In this document: positions 19,427-53,800 of the stretch, piece by piece
How positions within the stretch are numbered: the stretch's first letter is position 1
Layout: every line of letters begins with the position of its first letter
NCBI GenBank assembly: GCA_001599935.1
Contig: BCIJ01000013.1
Location: forward strand, 455,469-519,468
Source: Holtermannia corniformis
Lineage: Eukaryota > Basidiomycota > Tremellomycetes > Holtermanniales
Reading direction: 5' to 3'
Length of the DNA stretch: 64,000 nt
Translations under genes and position numbers: made by a program
The notes under the pieces: model-generated
Databases searched by the model: none
What the model saw: the letters and a program-made list of their open reading frames with translations, nothing else
Told to the model about the DNA's origin: nothing

Positions 19427-22400
19427 ATGACAGTGCCCGCGCCAGCGTACGCGCCAGAGCGCACAGACCTCTTGCGCTGGCGTCTGATCGTAGGCCACGA
19501 CTCGCACGGCCAGCACAAGTGGGTCTACCTCTCTCAAGAGCACAGCAAAGACTGGAAGCAGTCCAAGGAGGAAAAGTACTGGCTCGGCTTGGAGGTGGTA
19601 AGCCGTTGATCAGCACAGACTCGGCGTGGCGCTGAATAGAGTATAGGATGCTCCAGAGCTCGACAAGCCTCGAACGGCTCTGGACGCGGCGCGATCGGGT
19701 TTCGAGTTTGTAAAGCAGATCCAGTCAACCGACGGCCACTTTTCTGCCGAGTATGGCGGTCAGTCCCTTGCTCGGTTACAGCTAGGTGACTTATACACGT
19801 CAAGGCCCACTCTTTCTCCTCCCTGGCCTCGTCATCGCCTGCTACGTAACGGGCTGCACCCTGCTGAACGAGCAAAAGATTGAAATCAAGCGCTACCTAC
19901 TCAACAAGCGCCGGAAAGAGGGCGGCTGGGGCCTGTCAGTCCTTGCACTCTCCCATCCCTGCTACACCAGTTGACGTCAGTAGCCACACTGCAGGCACCC
20001 CGACCGTCTACGGGACCGTCTTGAACTATGTCACTCTCCGTCTGCTCGGCATGGGACCCGATGAAGGTCCAATGACAGACATCAGAGCGCTGATCCATGA
20101 GATGGGTCCGTTGCCGATGAAACTGCCAAAGTACAAGACTGATCTCGGATGACCAGGCGGCGCAACGGGGATCCCGACATGGGGCAAGGTCTGGCTCAGC
20201 ATCCTTGGCGCCTACGACTGGGCGGGTGTGAATCCGACACCACCCGAGATTCTGTCAGTGCTAGGGGGATGCCGACCGAAGCGCTGCTGATGCTACCTAT
20301 AGGCTGCTGCCGAAATGGGTGCCATTCCACCCGCGGCGCTGGGTACGTGAAGCACTTGCACCAAACAATCACGCTGACCTCGTTGCAGTGGGTTCACGTC
20401 AGGGCTGTGTGTAAGTGGCTGCCCCAGTCTGGTCAATACGCCGAGCTCACGACTTGCAGACTGGCCGATGAGCTATCTCGCCGGCCGGCGTTACGTCGCA
20501 ACCCCGACCCCGCTCGTGTACGCCCTTCGCGAGGTGAGCGCATGCTGTGCCTCAAACTAGGCTGACTCTGCCAGGAATTGTACACACAGCCCTACGCGTC
20601 CATCCATTGGTCGCGCCAGGGCGACAACATCTCGCCTCTGGACGAGTACAGCCCTCACCACCTCGTGCTCCGGATCGCAAACGTCTTTCTGCGCATCTAC
20701 GAATTCATCATCACCTTGCCCTTGATCGCTGCTATCCTGCCCATCCGGCAATGGGGTCTCGCGGCCGCCCTGAACCTCATCACCATGGAAGACGAGGACA
20801 CGGGCTACCAGACGATCGGACCCGTCTCCAAGTCGTTCAACATGGTCGCGCGCTACGCGGCCTCTGGCGGCGAGAGCGAGGCGTTCAAGCAGCACGTGGC
20901 CAAGATCGACGATTTCCTCTGGCTCGGCAAAGACGGCTTGATGATGTGCGGCACCAACGGCTCCCAGCTCTGGGACCTCGCGTTCCTAGCGCAGGCCGTA
21001 ACGGAATCGGGCCTGGCCGAGGACCCGGCGAACCGCGAGTGTATGACGGGGATGCTCGATTGGCTCGATAAAGCGCAGATCAGGACCAACTCGAAGCATT
21101 ACCCGCACGACTTTAGGCATCCCACAAAGGGCGCCTGGGCGTTTTCGACGCCCGAACAGGGATACACTGTGAGCGACACGACGGCCGAAGGGCTCAAGGC
21201 CGCGCTTGCGCTTCAGGGTCTCAGGTCGGTCACCGTCTGTGCTGGAGCGGACCCAACTCGCTGACGACGGTTCACAGTTATACTAAGAAGCCGATCACGA
21301 TTGATCGTCTTAGAGACACCGTCGATATCCTGCTCTCGATGCAGAACCCAAATGGCGGGTTCGCGAGCTATGAGCTCGTCCGAGGCTCGCACAAGCTCGA
21401 GTGGTTGAACGCGGCTGAAGTCTTTGGTGAGCATTCCGCGGAGCCGAGGTGGCATAGTTGACGTTGAGACGCATAGGCAACATCATGACAGATTTTTGCT
21501 ACCCCGAGTGCGTTGCGTGGATGTAGGGTGTGGGAGCTGAAGCGATGTGCAGGTGCTCGACTTCGGCGTTGTCGGGTCTTGTCCATTTCACCAAGCATGA
21601 TCCTGGATACCGCGCCGACGAGATCAAGTGTGTCGTGTGGCGGGCTGAAGCGAATGGAAACTGAAGTGTATCAGGCGGACGGTCAACAAGGCGATCAAGT
21701 ACATTCACGACGTCCAGCGTCCAGACGGCTCGTGGTATGGCTCATGGTGAGCGCGTTACCGCAGCAAGCGCGACGCTAACGCACCCAGGGGCATCTGTTT
21801 CACCTATGCTACGATGTTTGCTCTCGAATCACTCTCGATCGCCGGTGAGACGTTCGCCAACTCTGAGCGTGTACGTCGAGCGTGTGCGTTCCTGGTCGAC
21901 AAGCAGATGGAGGATGGCGGTTGGGGCGAGACGTACATGGTGAGCGTTATGGTGCTAGTGTGAGCAGGCGCTGACGCTACTTGCCTAGTCGTGCGTGACG
22001 GGTGTGTATGCACAGCACGAGCAGTCGCAGGTCGTGCAGACGGCTTGGAGTGTGCTGGCATTGATCTATGCCGATTATCCGGATAAGGAGGTCGTCAAGA
22101 AGGCAGTCGTGCTAATCGTTAGCCGACAGCAGCCGGTGAGTGCATCCCGCGAGCAGCGAGAGGGACTGACTCGCACAGGATGGACGTTGGGAACAAGAGG
22201 ACACCGAAGGCATCTTCAACAAGAATTGCGCCATCGACTACCCCTGTGAGTCTCATCGCCCTAACGTAAGCCTCGCTGACGTTTGCTAGTCTTCAAACTG
22301 GTCTTCACAATCTGGGCGCTGGGTCGAGCCGACAAATACCTTGGACCGCAACATAATACCCTGGAGCTGCACCAGGCCTCGTCGACATCATCCTTTGAAT

Positions 22401-24615
22401 CGGACGAGCTTGTCCCTGACCCCGACTCTGTATTGATCTTGCATGCGTCCGAGACGGGCAACGCGCAGGATGTGGCTGAACGCGTCGGGCGCGAGTTTAG
22501 GCGGCACGGCGCGCGCGCAGGCGTCATGGGCATGGAGGAGTTTGACATTGTGAGTCAACAGGAGCCATAGAGGAGATGTAGCCCTGTTCATGCCGTGTAG
22601 AGTGAGCTCCCACACGTCCCCCTCGTCGTCCTCGTCACCTCGACCCATGGTCGCGGCGATCCACCTCCTGCCATGAAACCGTTATGGTCGGCTCTGCTAC
22701 GAGCGTCGTTACCACCGGATATCCTGGAGGACGTCAGCTTTGCGCTGTATGCGCTCGGTGACTCGGGCTATGAAAAGTTTTGCTACGCCGGCAAGATCTT
22801 GGCACGGCGCATGGTCGGCTTGGGCGCTTTGATGGTGAATGAGCCTGCGTGGGGTGATGAACGGGCGCCAGATGGGTGGGTCTGTTCTTTGCCAGTCGAG
22901 CAGGCAGCTGATACCGCGTCAGGATTGAGGAGACGTTCATTCCTTGGATGGCATCGACGTTGGAGGAGATGCTGCCAATGCTGCCGCCCCCGCCACCGCA
23001 ATTCGTGCCGCCGCCGACGTCTGATATCCCACAGCCTCTGTACGCACTCGTCCCTGTCGCCAAGCATGCGCATGTCGACGGCACACGGACCGTGAGCGAG
23101 CACCGGCTGCCGCAAGGGTGGTCATGGGCGACGCTCAAGTCGGTGCAGCGTGCGACCAAGGAGGGCTGGTATCAGGATGTCCAGCAGATCGAGCTCGAGC
23201 TCGATCCATCATTGTGGGTCGAGCCGTTGGTCTGTCTCAGAGCTAACACTGTGCCGCAGGGATGTTTACCCGGCTGGTGCGATTTGCTCGTTGCAGCCTG
23301 AAAACCTAGCTTCCGAAGTCGACGCCTTTCTCGAGCTCGCAGGATTAGAGGCCGAAGCAGACCGATCGGTCCGTGTACAGTCCCTGTCGCCTGATCAGCC
23401 GCTCCCCGCGCACCTACCAAGCGCAGACACGACGACGACACTCCGGCGACTCTTGACTTTGCATCTGGATCTCAGGTCACCACCGCGCAAGAGCTTCTTC
23501 GAGTGGATGCGGCGATTCACGACGAGTGAGATGGAGCGGGAGCGCCTGGATGAGTTCCTTGCGGATCCAGTGAGTACCACCCGCGGCGTGCAGTGTACAG
23601 ACGGTTGACGATTTATGGTAGGATGAGATCCACGACTATGCGACCCGACCGCACAGGACGGTCTTGGAGACTCTGGGCGATTTCAGAGAGACAAAGATCC
23701 CGCTGTCGCATGTACTCGAAGTCTTCCCGCCGCTGCGGAGGCGGCAGTTCTCCATTGCCAGCAACGGAGCGGTAGGCATTTGGTGATGTCAAAGGATCGC
23801 ACTGACTAGGTGGCCAGACGCACCCAGGGGTTGTGCAGCTACTGGTCGCCATTGTACAGTACCAGACAAACCTCAAGGTCCCACGGCAGGGTTCTTGCAC
23901 CTCATGGTTGAAGACCTTGAAGCCCGGTTGGTCCATTCACCTGACAACGGCGAAGCTGACAACGGCACAGGTGACAAAGTACCTTTGCGGCTAGAGGCGC
24001 CCACCTTGTTCTTGCCAACCGCCAAGGACACTCCCGTCATCCTCGTTGGTCCAGGCACCGGGGTCGCGCCCATGCGGTCCTTTATCGAAGAGCGGGTCAG
24101 GCAAGGTGAAGGAAAAAGTATGCATCTCACACTGGTATGCCTTGTGCTGATTCTGGGCCCTAGACACTGTTCTGTACTTTGGCTGCCGGAGTGCCGAGCA
24201 GGATCTATTCTACGCCGCAGAATGGGCTGCGTACCGCGCGCAAGGGGTGCGCGTCCAAGTAGCTGCATCAAGGGATCAAGTAGGTCGGCCTCAAGTCGCG
24301 GTGTATGTGCTGACACCTTTAGGAGGACAAGGTTTACGTGCAGGATCTCATCAAGCGCGACGCGTCGCTCATCAAGGAGTGGCTGGTGGACCGTAAAGGC
24401 AGCGTCTACATTTCGGGGTGCGTTGCACCTTGTGGCTGCATGTGGAGCTGACACTAGGCAGATCATCCAACGCTATGCCCAAGGCGGTACGTGCCGCGCT
24501 CGCGTGGTGCATCTCGGTCGAGTCTGGCGAGGGCGACTTGACCGAGGAGGACGCGGTGGCGTATGTGACGGATGTCTTTGAGTGTGGTACGAGGGGCGGC
24601 GAGGAGAGTTGGTAG
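19427..24615 (+). CDS. Fused lanosterol synthase (ERG7) - Tah18/NDOR1 diflavin reductase
   Basis: One spliced frame from ATG 19427 to TAG at about 24615. The first part is oxidosqualene:lanosterol cyclase: QW-type repeats ([43 protein letters not shown]), the catalytic motif [10 protein letters not shown] at 21169-21198, and the conserved end [30 protein letters not shown]. After a 27-residue linker the frame runs straight into an FMN-binding flavodoxin domain ([20 protein letters not shown], then [11 protein letters not shown] and [16 protein letters not shown]). FAD and NADPH domains follow ([44 protein letters not shown]; terminal GGEESW). [11 protein letters not shown] is typical of Tah18, not of cytochrome P450 reductase. 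No stop lies between the halves and no in-frame ATG precedes the FMN loop. Tah18 normally passes electrons to Dre2 in cytosolic Fe-S assembly; ERG7 works on ER or lipid droplets. Confidence 0.85.
22346..22426 (+). other. Linker joining the ERG7 and TAH18 domains
   Basis: Twenty-seven codons between the last cyclase residues (ADKYLG) and the first flavodoxin strand (SVLILHAS). They are rich in Ser, Glu and Asp and lie inside one exon (22290 to about 22546). No stop, no in-frame ATG and no good intron pair is visible in it. It is the key region for judging the fusion. Confidence 0.8.
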
Positions 24616-24860
24616 GCATGAGCATGATTGCATCTGTATGTAGCATAGCAAAGGCAGCGCCATGACTGCGACGCCAAAGGAACGCCAAAACTAGTTTGCG
24701 CGCGCCGCAGTCTGGTTCTCGCATGCCGTCACTTGTCCGCCACTTGAAACCAACGACCAACCCGACTTTCGGACGAGCTCACCAGTCGTCGGATGTGACG
24801 GCGTACCAGCGCTCGCTCCAATCCAGCAGCTGACCGATGCTACAGAGCGTCTGACTCGCA

Positions 24861-27013
24861 ATGTACATACCAAACGTCCCGCGGCGTACGGTGCAGCTTG
24901 GACTGTTTGGGATAGTGCCAACACTCTTGCTTGTGTATCTATACTTTGTCCCGTCGGGGCGCTACATCTTTCCAAGCGGCGAGGGACCTACCGACGGCTT
25001 GCTTGATGTATCTGTGGAGGAAAGCCGGTGGAAGGATCGATGCGAGGTCAACCATGACTTTGTGGACGAGTACGGCCGGGCAAACTTGAGGATGAGCCGA
25101 GGGTACGAGGGTGGGTGTAGCCGGATGGCAGTGACCAAGGCTGATCCACCACCCAGGTTCGCACCGAAGAATGCGTCAGGCGATCCAACGAGCGATGCGC
25201 GGGGAGAAGATCACTTTGTCTGCGATCGGAGGTTCAGGTTGGCTTCGGATCGCTTCCTCGGCTCAGAGCTGACATGGGCAGTGACAACGGGACATCATAT
25301 CGAAAAGAACGAAATCTGGTTTCACGTCTTGTCTGAATGGTTCAAGGACGCTTTCCCAACTGCCAAAGTCGAGGAGCGCAATGGTGCTGCCCCCGGTGAG
25401 TCGTGCATGGCAGACACGTTGCTCGCTGACTTGGGCGACAGCGACCGGCTCGGATTATTTCTCGTAGGCTTCACCTTGACCCAAGGTGTTCGTCGTCTGA
25501 CCAACACGCGCCAGTTTCTGCTTTCCTCTGCATATCCCTCCTACATCCGACATTATTTTTATAGAACTGGCTATCAACGACGAACCGCTGCCAGAGCATG
25601 TGGAGAACATGGAGAATCTTTTGCGAGGCCTGTTGGCGCTACCGCAGAAGCCTGCGGTCGTGCTTGTCGAGGTACTGGCGTTCAGTACCGGTGGCATGGG
25701 CGGTGGCGGTGGACGCTACCATTTGTAAGTGTGCCGCGAGTGACAGGGTTTGCTAATGTTTGCGCCAAGGCCTGTTGCTCAATACTATGGTATGTTGCGT
25801 GCCGTGTGACCTAAGCGATGCTGACTGCTGCTGCAGACGTGCCAATAATCAAGTGAGCCATGGCTCGTGGACTCTTGCCTCTGCTTACCGTGAAGCCAAC
25901 GACTTCCCCTTGCCGCGCACTTGGCCCGGCATCCTCAGCTACTCGGCCCATACTTTACCATCAAGTGAGCTCGCATCAGCACCGTGTGCATTGGCTGACC
26001 ACATATAGTGGCTGGGGCTACCCCGACACACGCCACATCAACAGCATCGGCCACCGCGACATGGCCATGCTGCTCGCCAGCTTTATCCACGACGTCACTT
26101 GTGAGATGCTCGCCGAGCCCCACTTTAGCCTAGCAACGGCGCCGGAGATGGTGTTTGCCGGTGACACTGATTGGTTGGCGTCGTGGACTGGTCCCGAAGA
26201 GCAGGTTGTTGCACTGGGAATCGAGCAGAGCGTCCAGTTGCCCGCTCAGGCCAGGCAATGGCGCATGAAGGGAGAGGATGATGAGAGTATACTGATGCCG
26301 GGACGGTGGATGGCAGAGGCCGAGATGGGCATGATCCCGCGGGTGAGTGATAGCGCCGAGACGGTCGCCATGGCGCTGACGCCAATCGCAGTTGCGAGCG
26401 CTCGAAGGCTGGGATCCAAGCCTCGGCCATATCACCGAGCCCTTTCACCCAACATGCCTGAGTACTCGCTCACCTTATCCGACCTACAACCTGACGCCGA
26501 CCGAGAATGACGGCTGGTCAGTACCACGAGCTGCCCAGCGTGCGCGTCGCTGACACCTAGCAGGGAAGACTGGGTCCACCCGGAACACATCGACAAGCCG
26601 TACCTCGTCGCGACCCGAGTCGGCGCCAAAGTCACGTTCGAGCTTGAAACGCATCTCGGTGTTGTTAAAATGTACTCGTTGCGCTCAAAGACGTTTGGTC
26701 TTGGCTCGGTCGAGTGCTGGGCCGACGACGAGCGCGATCGGGCCGTCAAGGTGCCAGGCTGGTGGGACAATGGCAGCGTGTGAGTCTCGCACGGGCGCTT
26801 GGACCGAGCTCAGATTGACAACGCGCAGTAACATTGGACGGTTCGCGACGATCCGCACCGACCTCTCACCGGGCAAGCACCTGATCAGCTGTGAGCTGCT
26901 TGAAGAGACGGCTGATCCGGACGGCGGTCACGGCTTCCGGATGATTTCAATGATGAGGTGCGATCCGAGTGGCATGTCTGACTAGAATCTGACGCGTTGT
27001 GCTCAGCATGTAA
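24861..27013 (+). CDS. Type II membrane SGNH/GDSL-like hydrolase
   Basis: Start ATG 24861. A single N-terminal membrane segment (LGLFGIVPTLLLVYLYFV) implies a Golgi or cell-surface type II protein. The lumenal part carries blocks seen in fungal SGNH-hydrolase-type proteins: LPQKPAVVLVEVLAFSTGG, then VAQYYDVPIIS, and the C-terminal catalytic-type block DTRHINSIGHRDMAMLL. A beta-rich tail follows (VGAKVTFELETHLGVVKMYS, GSVECWADDERDRAVKVPGW). The last intron leaves only a few codons before TAA 27011-27013. Related fungal proteins are suspected to act on cell-surface polysaccharide acyl groups; that is inference. The serine block could not be placed because of uncertain splicing near 25400-25560. 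Confidence 0.65.
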
Positions 27014-50391: not shown

Positions 50392-50880
50392 CTGCAGAGA
50401 ACCCTATCAAGACTACTGAATCGCACGACGTACGCTTGTCGCAGACTTTAATCTCAGTGGGCTACAGTGATTACGTAATAGTCACGTCTCGCACGGTAAA
50501 GCTGAAACGTCTCAGTCGGCGCAAACAGTGAGAAAGGACAGCACCGGCGGCGGCGACGGCGACGATAGCAACGAGCTCTGCTGATACGGGTGCCATTGAC
50601 AAGAGACAGCGCAGGCGCAGGCAAACGGCAGTGACAGAGCGATACGATCATTAGGCGGCGGCGGCGCGAGAACGCTAGGGCGAGCAAAGGCACCGCGCTC
50701 AAGGGCTCAAGCGTACGTGACCCGCGCAACGATTTTCCCATCGGCGACACGTCTGGACCAACATCATTATAATCGAGGACTGGACGGTGTACTGCTTGGT
50801 CAGAGGCATAGCTAGGACGTCCATCGGAGAATCAAGGTCGAACCGGCAGTCAAAGTATCCGATCACGCCACGCAACAATA

Positions 50881-53800
50881 ATGTCCATCGCCTCACGACC
50901 ACCCCCGTCGTCCAACAACAGTCCGCTCTCGCCAGCGCCTACAACGGCGTCATCGATGGGATACAGTGCCTACGCGGCCTCGTCGGCACCTAGCAGGATG
51001 CGGCAACCGTCACGCTCACGCCCAAGCGACGGTGATAGAGTCGATTCGAGGGAGATTGCTAGGGTTCACTGGGCTGCACTGAGAGAGTTTCTTGCGAGCT
51101 GGCTGGCGAGAGGTGTGTAGCGTCCTGTGATGCTGAGATGGGGCTCATACCGGGTAGAATCGCCAACCTCTCGAGCGTCGGCGAGGGAAAAGCTGACTCG
51201 CCTGACCAAACTTCAATTCCAAGAGCTCTCCACCGATGTGTACGATGAGCTTGTACGGCGTCAGGATGCAGAGAGGGGTGGACCCAATGGCGGATCAGGT
51301 CTGTCATCTATCACACGAATGAAAGTTCTCTTCTGACTGCGCCGCAGCGGCTCCTTTCCTACCTGTTCGCGACGACTTTCACCCGAAACGCAACCAGGCC
51401 CGACAGAAGCTTGCAACATTGCCGCGTAACCGGTTCAAGGACCTCGCAAGCGACGTCTTCTATGAGCTTCGCAGGCGATATCCCGAATTTGAAGAGGCAG
51501 AGAACCCATCGGACGCTCGATCTGAAATCTCATTCAATACCCCTCCTCCCGCACCAGGCCCTATTTCGGGCCACTCGTCCCGGCCATCTTATCATAAATC
51601 ATCATCATCCATGTCGCAGCAACAGCAACAACCCCAGCAGCCCGTGCTGAATCGGCTTGCGTCTGGTTCCTCACAGCGCTCTGGGAATGTCTCGATCCCA
51701 CGCGCAGATAGCAGGGAACAACAGCTGCAGGCGAGTGCGGCTGCGAATGAAGTCGTCGTGCCGAACAAATCACGACTACGGGAGGAAGAGATTGAAGTGC
51801 CGTATGCTCGCGAAAGCATGGCGCACTCGAGTTCGCGAAGGAGCAGCCTCGCAAGGGAGAGCTATGCTTCTGCTGGCCAGCAACAGCGAATCAGCCGTGC
51901 TCAGTCACAGGAACAAGAAACGTCGCCGGTCCCGACAGAGAACAAGGACTACTTTGATCGCATGTCGTTCAGCTCCAACGTGACAGGCGCTTCGAGGAGC
52001 CGAAATGTGAATGGCGGTGGTGGTTCTGGCTGGGACGAGGAGAGGGTCGATGCGATCCGCCGAGATTACGAATTGAGGATTGCTGGACTTGAGCGGCGGT
52101 TGACGGCTATCGAGGGTGAGAGGGATGAGGCGCGGCGGGTGGAACGCTTGGAGAAGGAGCGGGCGCGGGATCTCGAGGATGAAGTCCGAGGTATGAAGGA
52201 GGTGAGTGCGCCGCGTCTGTGTCGAAGCGGCAACTCATGCCATCAGCGCGCTGCAACTCATGCGAACGCGCTGCGATCCGTTCAGCATGAGCTTGATGTC
52301 GCCAACGACGCAGTCAATGCCGCACGGCGGCAAGGCGAGCAGAGTGTTCACGACGCTCGTGAAGAAACGGATCAATGGCGCGATCGCTGCGCTCAACTCG
52401 AAGATGAGCTACAACGACTCGAGGCCTCTGGTGGTCACGCCCGGGATGGAAGTAGCGACGAGGCCGTGCAGCTCAATCATGAGCTGCAGAACGAGGTCGT
52501 CAGTCTCCTGGACGAGCTCAAGGCGCTCTCGATCCGGCAGGATGAGATGCAGAATGCGCGCGATCAGGACGCAGCCGCCGTGAGGGAACTCGAGGACCGA
52601 GCGGCAGACTACAAACGGAAATGGGAGACGGTGCGGATGGAGCTGCGGAATCTCAAGGGTGCGCTGGGTTCGGCCGCGACCAGATTGTGGCTAATCAGGA
52701 TAGCTACATCAACCATGTTCGTCTCGAAGCCAGTCACGGACGACCACCTGCCCGCATCGGCGGATGGCAATGTTGCAGACGTGCACGTGCATGCGTTCCA
52801 GGCGGCTATTGATGCTTTGTTGACTGCTGCGAGGTCAGTCGAAGCCAGGTTGCCCGAGTTTCCCTGACAGCCGTAGATCGTCAACCCCATCAGGTGTCCT
52901 GCCGGCTATGAAGGGCGTCGTGATCGCAACGGCCGACATCTCCGAAGATGTCAAGGCATTCGAGGGGCACCCAAACCTCGACGTCGATGTCTCCCACCTA
53001 GAATCGCTCAAGCACCAATCCACAGCAACGCTCAACGCCCTCATGCAAGCCGCTCGAAGTCATGCCATGTCTTCCGGCTTGTCGCCCGTCAGCCTACTTG
53101 ATGCCGCCGCAGGGCACGTAACAGCCAACGTGGTGGAGATCATCAAGTTGCTCAAAATCCGTCGAGTTGGCAAGCCCGATCCCCGGAACAGCATCTTCAT
53201 GCGCGACTCCATTTCAGGGCCATCGAGCAAGATGGAGCGCTTGCGTGAGGAACCCGTGCGGCGCGGCTCATCTTCATACGACTCGCCGAGCCGCAGTAAC
53301 ACTGCGTCGCCGGCTGGCGGGTACGCGAATGGCTATGCGTCAGCATCAGCACCTGCCGTGCGGCCTCCTGCTCGAGGCATGAGCTTTCAGAGCGACTCGT
53401 TTGAGCTTGAGCGCAAGCCGTCGGCTGCGAGCGCGACGGATCGCATGCCAGAGCCCCCATCGAGGTCACAGAGCGTCAACAACCGGATTTCGCAAAGTTC
53501 GGCAACGACCTCTGGCGCTTCGAGTGCACCCCCACCGGCTGTTTTCGATACGCCAGTGGTAGCCGAGTACCCGCAGTACGGTCGCTCCAGTGATGAGTCA
53601 CATACACCTGAGCCAGAGCCGGAGCCACAGTTTGTTGACGGGGCTGATGATCGCGAATGGGAGGAGCTCAAGGTATGTAGGCCTGACGTCAGCTGCTTCG
53701 AGCTGATCTGTCGCAGCCATACCTGGAGAAGCAGTCCTCGGCACTCGTCAACTCGATCCAGAACTTGTTGGCTGCCATTCGATCTGGCGGACAAGGTCCG

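Follow-up and report, generated by a model that had tools for sequence, protein, structure and literature searches.

The described systems closest to the locus reported here, a gene of the basidiomycete Holtermannia corniformis (Tremellomycetes, Holtermanniales) in which the reading frames of lanosterol synthase (ERG7) and of the diflavin reductase Tah18 run into one another, are the free forms of the two enzymes and a set of fusions that involve Erg7 or a diflavin reductase. The gene lies in a window of 64,000 nucleotides (nt), positions 455469-519468 of contig BCIJ01000013.1 (C13) of assembly GCA_001599935.1, which comprises 20.2 Mb in 55 contigs, and all gene positions below are counted from the first letter of this window. 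In cytosolic iron-sulfur (Fe-S) assembly, the CIA pathway, Dre2 receives electrons that Tah18 draws from NADPH (PMC12674569, PMC6006210, PMC3721309), and in yeast the C-terminus of Dre2 is bound by the N-terminal part of Tah18, which holds the flavin mononucleotide (FMN) and flavin adenine dinucleotide (FAD) domains, in an essential interaction (PMC4942693). In Toxoplasma, NBP35 is anchored at the outer mitochondrial membrane and Tah18 is found at the mitochondrion (PMC12674569). Erg7 of Saccharomyces cerevisiae resides in the endoplasmic reticulum (ER) and on lipid particles, its step falls between those of squalene epoxidase Erg1 and the cytochrome P450 Erg11 (PMC7397035), and it is present in every yeast lipid-droplet proteome compared (PMC4076087). 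A fusion of Erg7 with Erg28 retains activity, and with it erg27 mutants regain ergosterol synthesis (Layer et al. 2013, as cited in PMC7397035). Diflavin reductase domains also occur as parts of larger proteins, joined to a P450 in P450-BM3 and to a haem protein in nitric oxide (NO) synthase (PMC2257935).

The H. corniformis gene shares with the Erg7-Erg28 protein an Erg7 placed inside a fusion polypeptide, though there the partner is the ER-resident scaffold Erg28 and not a reductase. With P450-BM3, NO synthase and the nitrate reductase-sulfite reductase flavoprotein it shares a reductase module joined to another enzyme, but the partners in fusions of the P450-BM3 and NO synthase type are redox enzymes, which a cyclase is not. 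The membrane-associated CIA pathway of Toxoplasma offers a Tah18 at a membrane-bound organelle rather than free in the cytosol; that organelle, however, is the mitochondrion and not the ER or lipid droplet, and the passages on it mention no fusion to a lipid enzyme. To our knowledge, the known diflavin reductase fusions pair the reductase with a redox partner, and no description of a lanosterol synthase-Tah18 fusion was found in open-licence PMC papers. The domain architecture is new, and each half belongs to a known family.

The fused gene reads from the ATG at 19427 to the TAG at 24613-24615 in 26 exons and 25 introns as a single frame of 1338 residues, with lanosterol synthase at residues 1-722, a linker at 723-750 and Tah18/NDOR1 at 751-1338, and the 1338 codons contain no stop codon or frameshift. 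The exons were read one by one and then joined. The 25 introns each measure 41-53 nt, and every one of their donors fits GTNNG[TC]; the TGA at 20150 and the TAG near 21525, which appear as stops within the cyclase, both lie inside introns of this pattern. A donor for exon 11 at 21519/21520 was dropped for want of a GT in favour of 21508 (GTGCGT), which yields YPECSTSA, near the YPECTTSA and YPECSTSA of relatives. The spliced protein matches, in order, SQHop_cyclase_N (PF13249), SQHop_cyclase_C (PF13243), Flavodoxin_1 (PF00258), FAD_binding_1 (PF00667) and NAD_binding_1 (PF00175), all above cut-offs.

The junction between the two halves falls within exon 17 (Table 1). Removal of intron 16, which is present as the first-pass annotation had described it, gives an ERG7 C-terminus that resembles those of aligned relatives (e.g., P0238), while its retention would stop the frame within the intron and cost ERG7 about 19 conserved terminal residues. 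From that C-terminus the frame continues into the FMN domain without a stop, as the same annotation had claimed; it had also seen a continuous linker, which stands, of 27 codons, one fewer than the sequence holds. The gene coordinates and the FMN loop that it gave agree with the sequence as well. Its claim that no in-frame ATG precedes the FMN domain is borne out in a broader form, since no ATG occurs in any frame between 22246 and 22440. The next ATG, at 22443, is out of frame and already within the first FMN-domain strand; the first in-frame ATGs of the reductase part, at 22526 and 22532, are both 3' of the FMN loop. A hidden linker intron that could bring back a stop or a start is ruled out, as none of the five GT sites in 22290-22440 obeys the donor rule and no consensus donor is found 41-53 nt upstream of any of the three AG acceptors in frame, which end at 22366, 22375 and 22408. 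If intron 17 were retained, the ERG7 frame would read on well into the FMN domain, to a TAG in that intron.

The linker resembles coding sequence, and does so in the ERG7-TAH18 frame only, where its codon score is +2.7 against about -10 in the other two frames. Among 1859 overlapping local noncoding 84-mers, 402 are free of stops and 3 of these score at least as high as the linker. Of 1207 coding 84-mers read out of frame and free of stops, 1 does so, and of 1255 read in frame in the same gene, 133 score no higher than the linker. The noncoding pool is small and its members overlap, and these counts serve as a guide rather than as probabilities. Free ERG7 proteins end 2-7 residues past the KYL position (n=20), and free Tah18 proteins start 8-40 residues ahead of the SETG loop (n=26, P0121-P0146). 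Several of the latter carry a Ser-rich acidic N-terminal extension like the second half of the linker, and many have only a few residues there (MIPxILYA). When the 22-residue tail of the linker was compared with the extensions of the 8 relatives having at least 15 residues, the score was 118 against a shuffle mean of 75.8 and was reached by 15 of 300 shuffles. The second half of the linker thus weakly resembles a free Tah18 N-terminus, a likeness that is suggestive only.

Both halves look complete and keep their motifs, in agreement with the first-pass annotation. The cyclase half aligns with human oxidosqualene cyclase (1w6k) over residues 10-718 (E=1.8e-194), scores 658.8 bits with TIGR01787 (cut-off 322.7), is spanned by the squalene cyclase N and C domains and is at most 69% identical to Tremellomycete ERG7. 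It retains Asp457, which we take to be the catalytic Asp of the DCTAE motif and which is D in 119 of 120 fungal homologues, with a gap in the remaining one. Relative to free ERG7, the fused protein lacks the ERG7 stop, has a diflavin reductase as a C-terminal extension and reads DTTAE for DCTAE. At columns invariant in the compared Tremellomycete relatives, both halves keep about 96% of residues: 238 of 248 columns for the cyclase half (18 ERG7 relatives, themselves at 0.947-1.000) and 162 of 168 for the reductase half (24 TAH18 relatives, themselves at 0.944-1.000). Partial or aberrant rows had been left out of this test beforehand (P0251 and P0256 for ERG7; P0001, P0145 and P0146 for TAH18). 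The product of the cyclase half is most likely lanosterol.

The reductase half shares with Tah18/NDOR1/ATR3 of the CIA pathway the FMN, FAD and NADPH domains, whose motifs are intact in alignment, and the C-terminal Trp of Tah18, which is W in 114 of 117 homologues and a gap in 3; its identity to full-length Tremellomycete Tah18 is at most 60%. The FMN domain scores 110.6 bits with human NDOR1 (4h2d) against 64.1 with P450 reductase. When the whole half was compared with the PDB, the top scores went to P450 reductases (217.7 bits), and the sole NDOR1 chain listed there is the FMN domain alone. Its best database match is named NADPH-dependent diflavin oxidoreductase 1, and some close matches are named NADPH-ferrihemoprotein reductase. 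The half carries neither the N-terminal membrane anchor nor the FMN domain of cytochrome P450 reductase (CPR) type that mark NCP1. It also departs from free Tah18, having no Met and no start codon of its own just ahead of the FMN domain, where 722 residues of cyclase and the linker stand instead. Dre2 is most likely still the binding partner and electron acceptor of the fused reductase.

Table 1. Features of the fused ERG7-TAH18 gene in the window
Feature	Position	Strand	Description
ERG7 part	19427..22345	+	exons 1-16 and first 56 nt of exon 17; residues 1-722; 16 introns of 41-53 nt
Asp457 (GAC) then Thr458 (ACG)	21175..21180	+	VSDTTAE instead of the usual VSDCTAE
Intron 16	22246..22289	+	GTGAGT...TGCTAG, 44 nt; last intron of the ERG7 part
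Exon 17, junction exon	22290..22549	+	ERG7 end, linker and start of FMN domain in one open frame; stops in both other frames
Linker	22346..22429	+	28 codons; hydrophilic (mean Kyte-Doolittle -1.0); net charge -6
CTG in good start context	22361..22363	+	A at -3, G at +4; possible relic or near-cognate TAH18 start
TAH18/NDOR1 part	22430..24615	+	rest of exon 17 to exon 26; residues 751-1338 and TAG; 9 introns of 43-52 nt; FMN, FAD and NADPH domains
FMN-binding loop SETGNA	22448..22465	+	from sequence and alignment

No second copy of ERG7 or TAH18 was found in the 20.2 Mb genome, an absence that is only as good as the assembly, which may be incomplete; intact separate copies elsewhere, which the first-pass annotation had raised as an argument against a fusion, thus did not turn up. 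The cyclase half gave 12 matches in the whole genome, all of them exons of the C13 locus, and a search with the PF13243 family pointed to one place. The reductase half gave 9 matches at the C13 locus and 4 distant ones of 28-30% identity on contigs C14, C26 and C38, and the FAD_binding_1 family was found on C26, on C14 and at the fused locus. C26 was ruled out as a second Tah18, being a P450 reductase (yeast CPR 2bf4, 355.7 bits), as was C38, where a flavodoxin domain is accompanied by one of nitrite/sulfite reductase; no long open reading frame (ORF) is listed at the C14 match. On C38 itself, positions 50580-51023 combine a nitrite/sulfite reductase half-domain with a flavodoxin domain that is 30% identical to the FMN domain of Tah18, and the gene is probably that of the sulfite reductase haemoprotein subunit. 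The genome has one CIAPIN1/DRE2 gene, exons of the squalene-epoxidase family and two loci of the ERG4/ERG24 family, so both pathways look alive.

Three protein searches were made: one with the reductase region against proteins some 736-2343 residues long (189 matches), one with the reductase alone (412) and one with the cyclase against proteins some 490-1570 residues long (2633). Each scored about 8000 candidates and listed the best 120. The top relatives among the matches listed are Tremellomycetes with separate proteins, led by Cryptococcus sp. DSM 104549 (69% for ERG7, 60% for Tah18), and the window's own protein is absent among them. The longest cyclase among the best 120 of the 2633 matches has 792 residues. 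In 16 of 17 Tremellomycete species, ERG7 and TAH18 are apparently on different contigs, judged by unequal lengths of the longest contig listed for each gene, a pairing made by eye that is a rough guide, as some clusters pool strains and some assemblies are fragmented. The remaining species is Vanrija pseudolonga, where the longest contig is 4,733,269 long for both the free Tah18 (P0141) and ERG7 (P0253).

That lanosterol synthase and Tah18 form a single gene here is well supported by the DNA, the single copy and the comparison with relatives. We consider it probable that this is a natural gene fusion whose product would be a bifunctional protein, an N-terminal oxidosqualene:lanosterol cyclase followed by a C-terminal NADPH-FAD-FMN reductase, each half keeping its ancestral reaction; this last point draws on the retained motifs and on the presence of the squalene-epoxidase-family, ERG4/24-family and DRE2 genes. 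The fusion may have arisen from head-to-tail ERG7 and TAH18 neighbours through a single deletion that took out the stop of ERG7, the start of TAH18 and the intergenic DNA between them, with the CTG at 22361 perhaps the mutated start. The cyclase half would convert 2,3-oxidosqualene to lanosterol as its ancestor did, and in the reductase half electrons would flow from NADPH through FAD and FMN to Dre2, in the service of cytosolic Fe-S assembly. Provided that the protein is made as one chain, it follows from the known location of Erg7 that the cyclase would carry the CIA reductase to the surface of the ER or lipid droplet. The first-pass annotation had suggested such a tether, electron supply to sterol-pathway oxygenases, or a coupling of Fe-S and haem status to sterol output, all of them putative roles. 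The reductase would be made in a 1:1 ratio with the cyclase under control of the ERG7 promoter, and the acidic 28-residue linker, if flexible, would leave room for Dre2. A further step, in which the CIA electron step has moved to the sterol-making ER and lipid-droplet membrane so that loading of Dre2 and Nbp35 is coupled, spatially or quantitatively, to iron- and haem-dependent sterol enzymes, or in which squalene epoxidase or CYP51 also draws electrons from the reductase, is doubtful. It is quite possible that the fusion is neutral and restricted to one lineage.

Several points weigh against a conserved and fully working fusion. A search for the fusion in related proteins, which the first-pass annotation had proposed, gave no protein joining the cyclase to Tah18 among the best 120 of the 189, 412 and 2633 matches, a result that is strong but not exhaustive, and conservation across species is hence not supported. 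The gene model is hand-made, and the openness of the linker over 84 nt is by itself weak evidence. Because Dre2 binds the N-terminal FMN/FAD part of yeast Tah18, a 722-residue partner at that end could hinder the contact (PMC4942693). The trees of the two halves (18 rows per gene) differ, with the ERG7 half basal to Tremellales and Trichosporonales (85/85) and the TAH18 half sister to Filobasidiales (95/90). Their terminal branches measure 0.56 (ERG7) and 0.57 (TAH18). A chimeric contig was considered and not accepted, as both trees put the window on a deep branch that lacks sampled relatives, close to where Filobasidiales and Tremellales part, a position that would suit Holtermanniales; the similar G+C content at third codon positions (GC3; 0.759 for ERG7, 0.705 for TAH18) and mean intron length (47.1 and 46.6 nt) also speak against it. 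Finally, the cyclase half carries C458T, Y322L, N331D and P429S at sites that are fixed or almost fixed in the 120 fungal homologues, those of Y322L and N331D being invariant in all 120. Position 458 is C in 118 of them, T in Mrakia frigida (P0268) and a gap in one, which suggests that a Cys beside the catalytic Asp is usual but not absolute. A neofunctional cyclase, read from DTTAE, was set aside in view of the same residue in Mrakia frigida and an unexceptional departure count: at 157 near-invariant columns the cyclase half departs 4 times, the maximum, tied with 11 other ERG7s of the 120 (median 1). The cyclase may be somewhat altered, and its sequence gives no sign of decay.

Other explanations of the locus have to be weighed against the natural fusion. 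The fusion may be translated and a free Tah18 made as well, from a promoter inside ERG7, from the near-cognate CUG at 22361, or from an upstream ATG spliced past the ERG7 end. The start context of that CTG would suit such a product, the AG acceptors ending at 22366, 22375 and 22408 are in the TAH18 frame, and an out-of-frame ATG at 22180, if spliced from 22246 to 22375, gives an open Tah18 start. The intron so formed, however, would be 130 nt long against 41-53 in the 25 modelled, the in-frame acceptors lack a consensus donor at the usual distance, and ERG7 would still be without a stop, so that the fusion would still be made. We regard this as unlikely, though it deserves to be kept in mind.

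An artefact of assembly or sequencing, by which a true stop and intergenic region were collapsed or lost and the genes are in truth separate, is distinctly improbable. It would accord with the two separate proteins of the compared relatives and with the lack of a fusion in any other genome among the matches listed. Yet a single-base error would find no ATG to uncover between 22246 and 22440, and the ATG at 22443, brought into frame by a one-base insertion, would start inside the FMN fold with its first strand lost. A collapse could yield this junction only with breakpoints a few codons at most from either coding end and with the frame preserved; moreover, the linker is codon-like and the halves share their intron style and a similar GC3.

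A decaying locus, with a non-functional fusion and neither product needed by the fungus, could be read from the four ERG7 substitutions at fixed or nearly fixed sites. Against it stand 1338 codons free of stops and frameshifts, a departure count that 11 other ERG7s equal, the retention of the catalytic Asp and of the FMN, FAD and NADPH motifs, and the fact that these are the sole copies found of two genes essential in yeast (for Tah18-Dre2, PMC4942693), and we find such decay very hard to credit. Just as implausible is an electron hub in which the tethered reductase feeds squalene epoxidase (ERG1, before ERG7) or CYP51 (ERG11, after it), an idea that draws on the place of ERG7 between these two enzymes (PMC7397035) and on the reductase modules of P450-BM3 and NO synthase (PMC2257935), but that meets a separate P450 reductase gene on C26, Dre2 as the described partner of Tah18, a cyclase that uses no electrons and the lack of any sequence feature indicating a new partner.

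Joined Tah18 proteins of other kinds appear among the database matches. The ten best Tah18 matches of at least 736 residues (P0001-P0010), a length filter that favours such proteins, are all annotated as fused to another domain (exonuclease, zinc-cluster regulator, SWIB, P450, kinase and others); these are probably mostly merged gene models. Among the Aspergillus and Penicilliopsis rows (P0012-P0032), 14 of 21 are annotated as Tah18 with an electron-transfer-flavoprotein domain, which is C-terminal in all 6 scanned. A RYKQETC-GLRIL junction, present in 7 of these 14, resembles splicing from the GT donor of a TGG-TAG Tah18 end into the next gene and, as far as the proteins alone tell, may reflect read-through splicing or repeated merging in annotation. 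The H. corniformis gene itself ends in TGG-TAG-GC (24610-24617), where the letters GTAGGC, which span the stop, would satisfy the local donor rule. Two neighbouring ORFs, among them that of the next gene downstream at 24855-25814, have no Pfam match, and Rfam and tRNA scans of the window returned nothing.

In summary, we describe what is probably a natural fusion of lanosterol synthase and Tah18, in which two enzymes of unrelated pathways, ERG7 and TAH18 both being essential in yeast, appear to stand on one polypeptide, and the genome search turned up neither of them as a free copy. Once translated as a fusion, the electron donor of Dre2 would have to act while tied to a membrane cyclase and at a fixed 1:1 ratio to it. 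The locus would then be a natural experiment that asks whether the electron step of the CIA pathway can take place on ER or lipid-droplet membranes, and whether Tah18 can cope with a large partner at its N-terminus.

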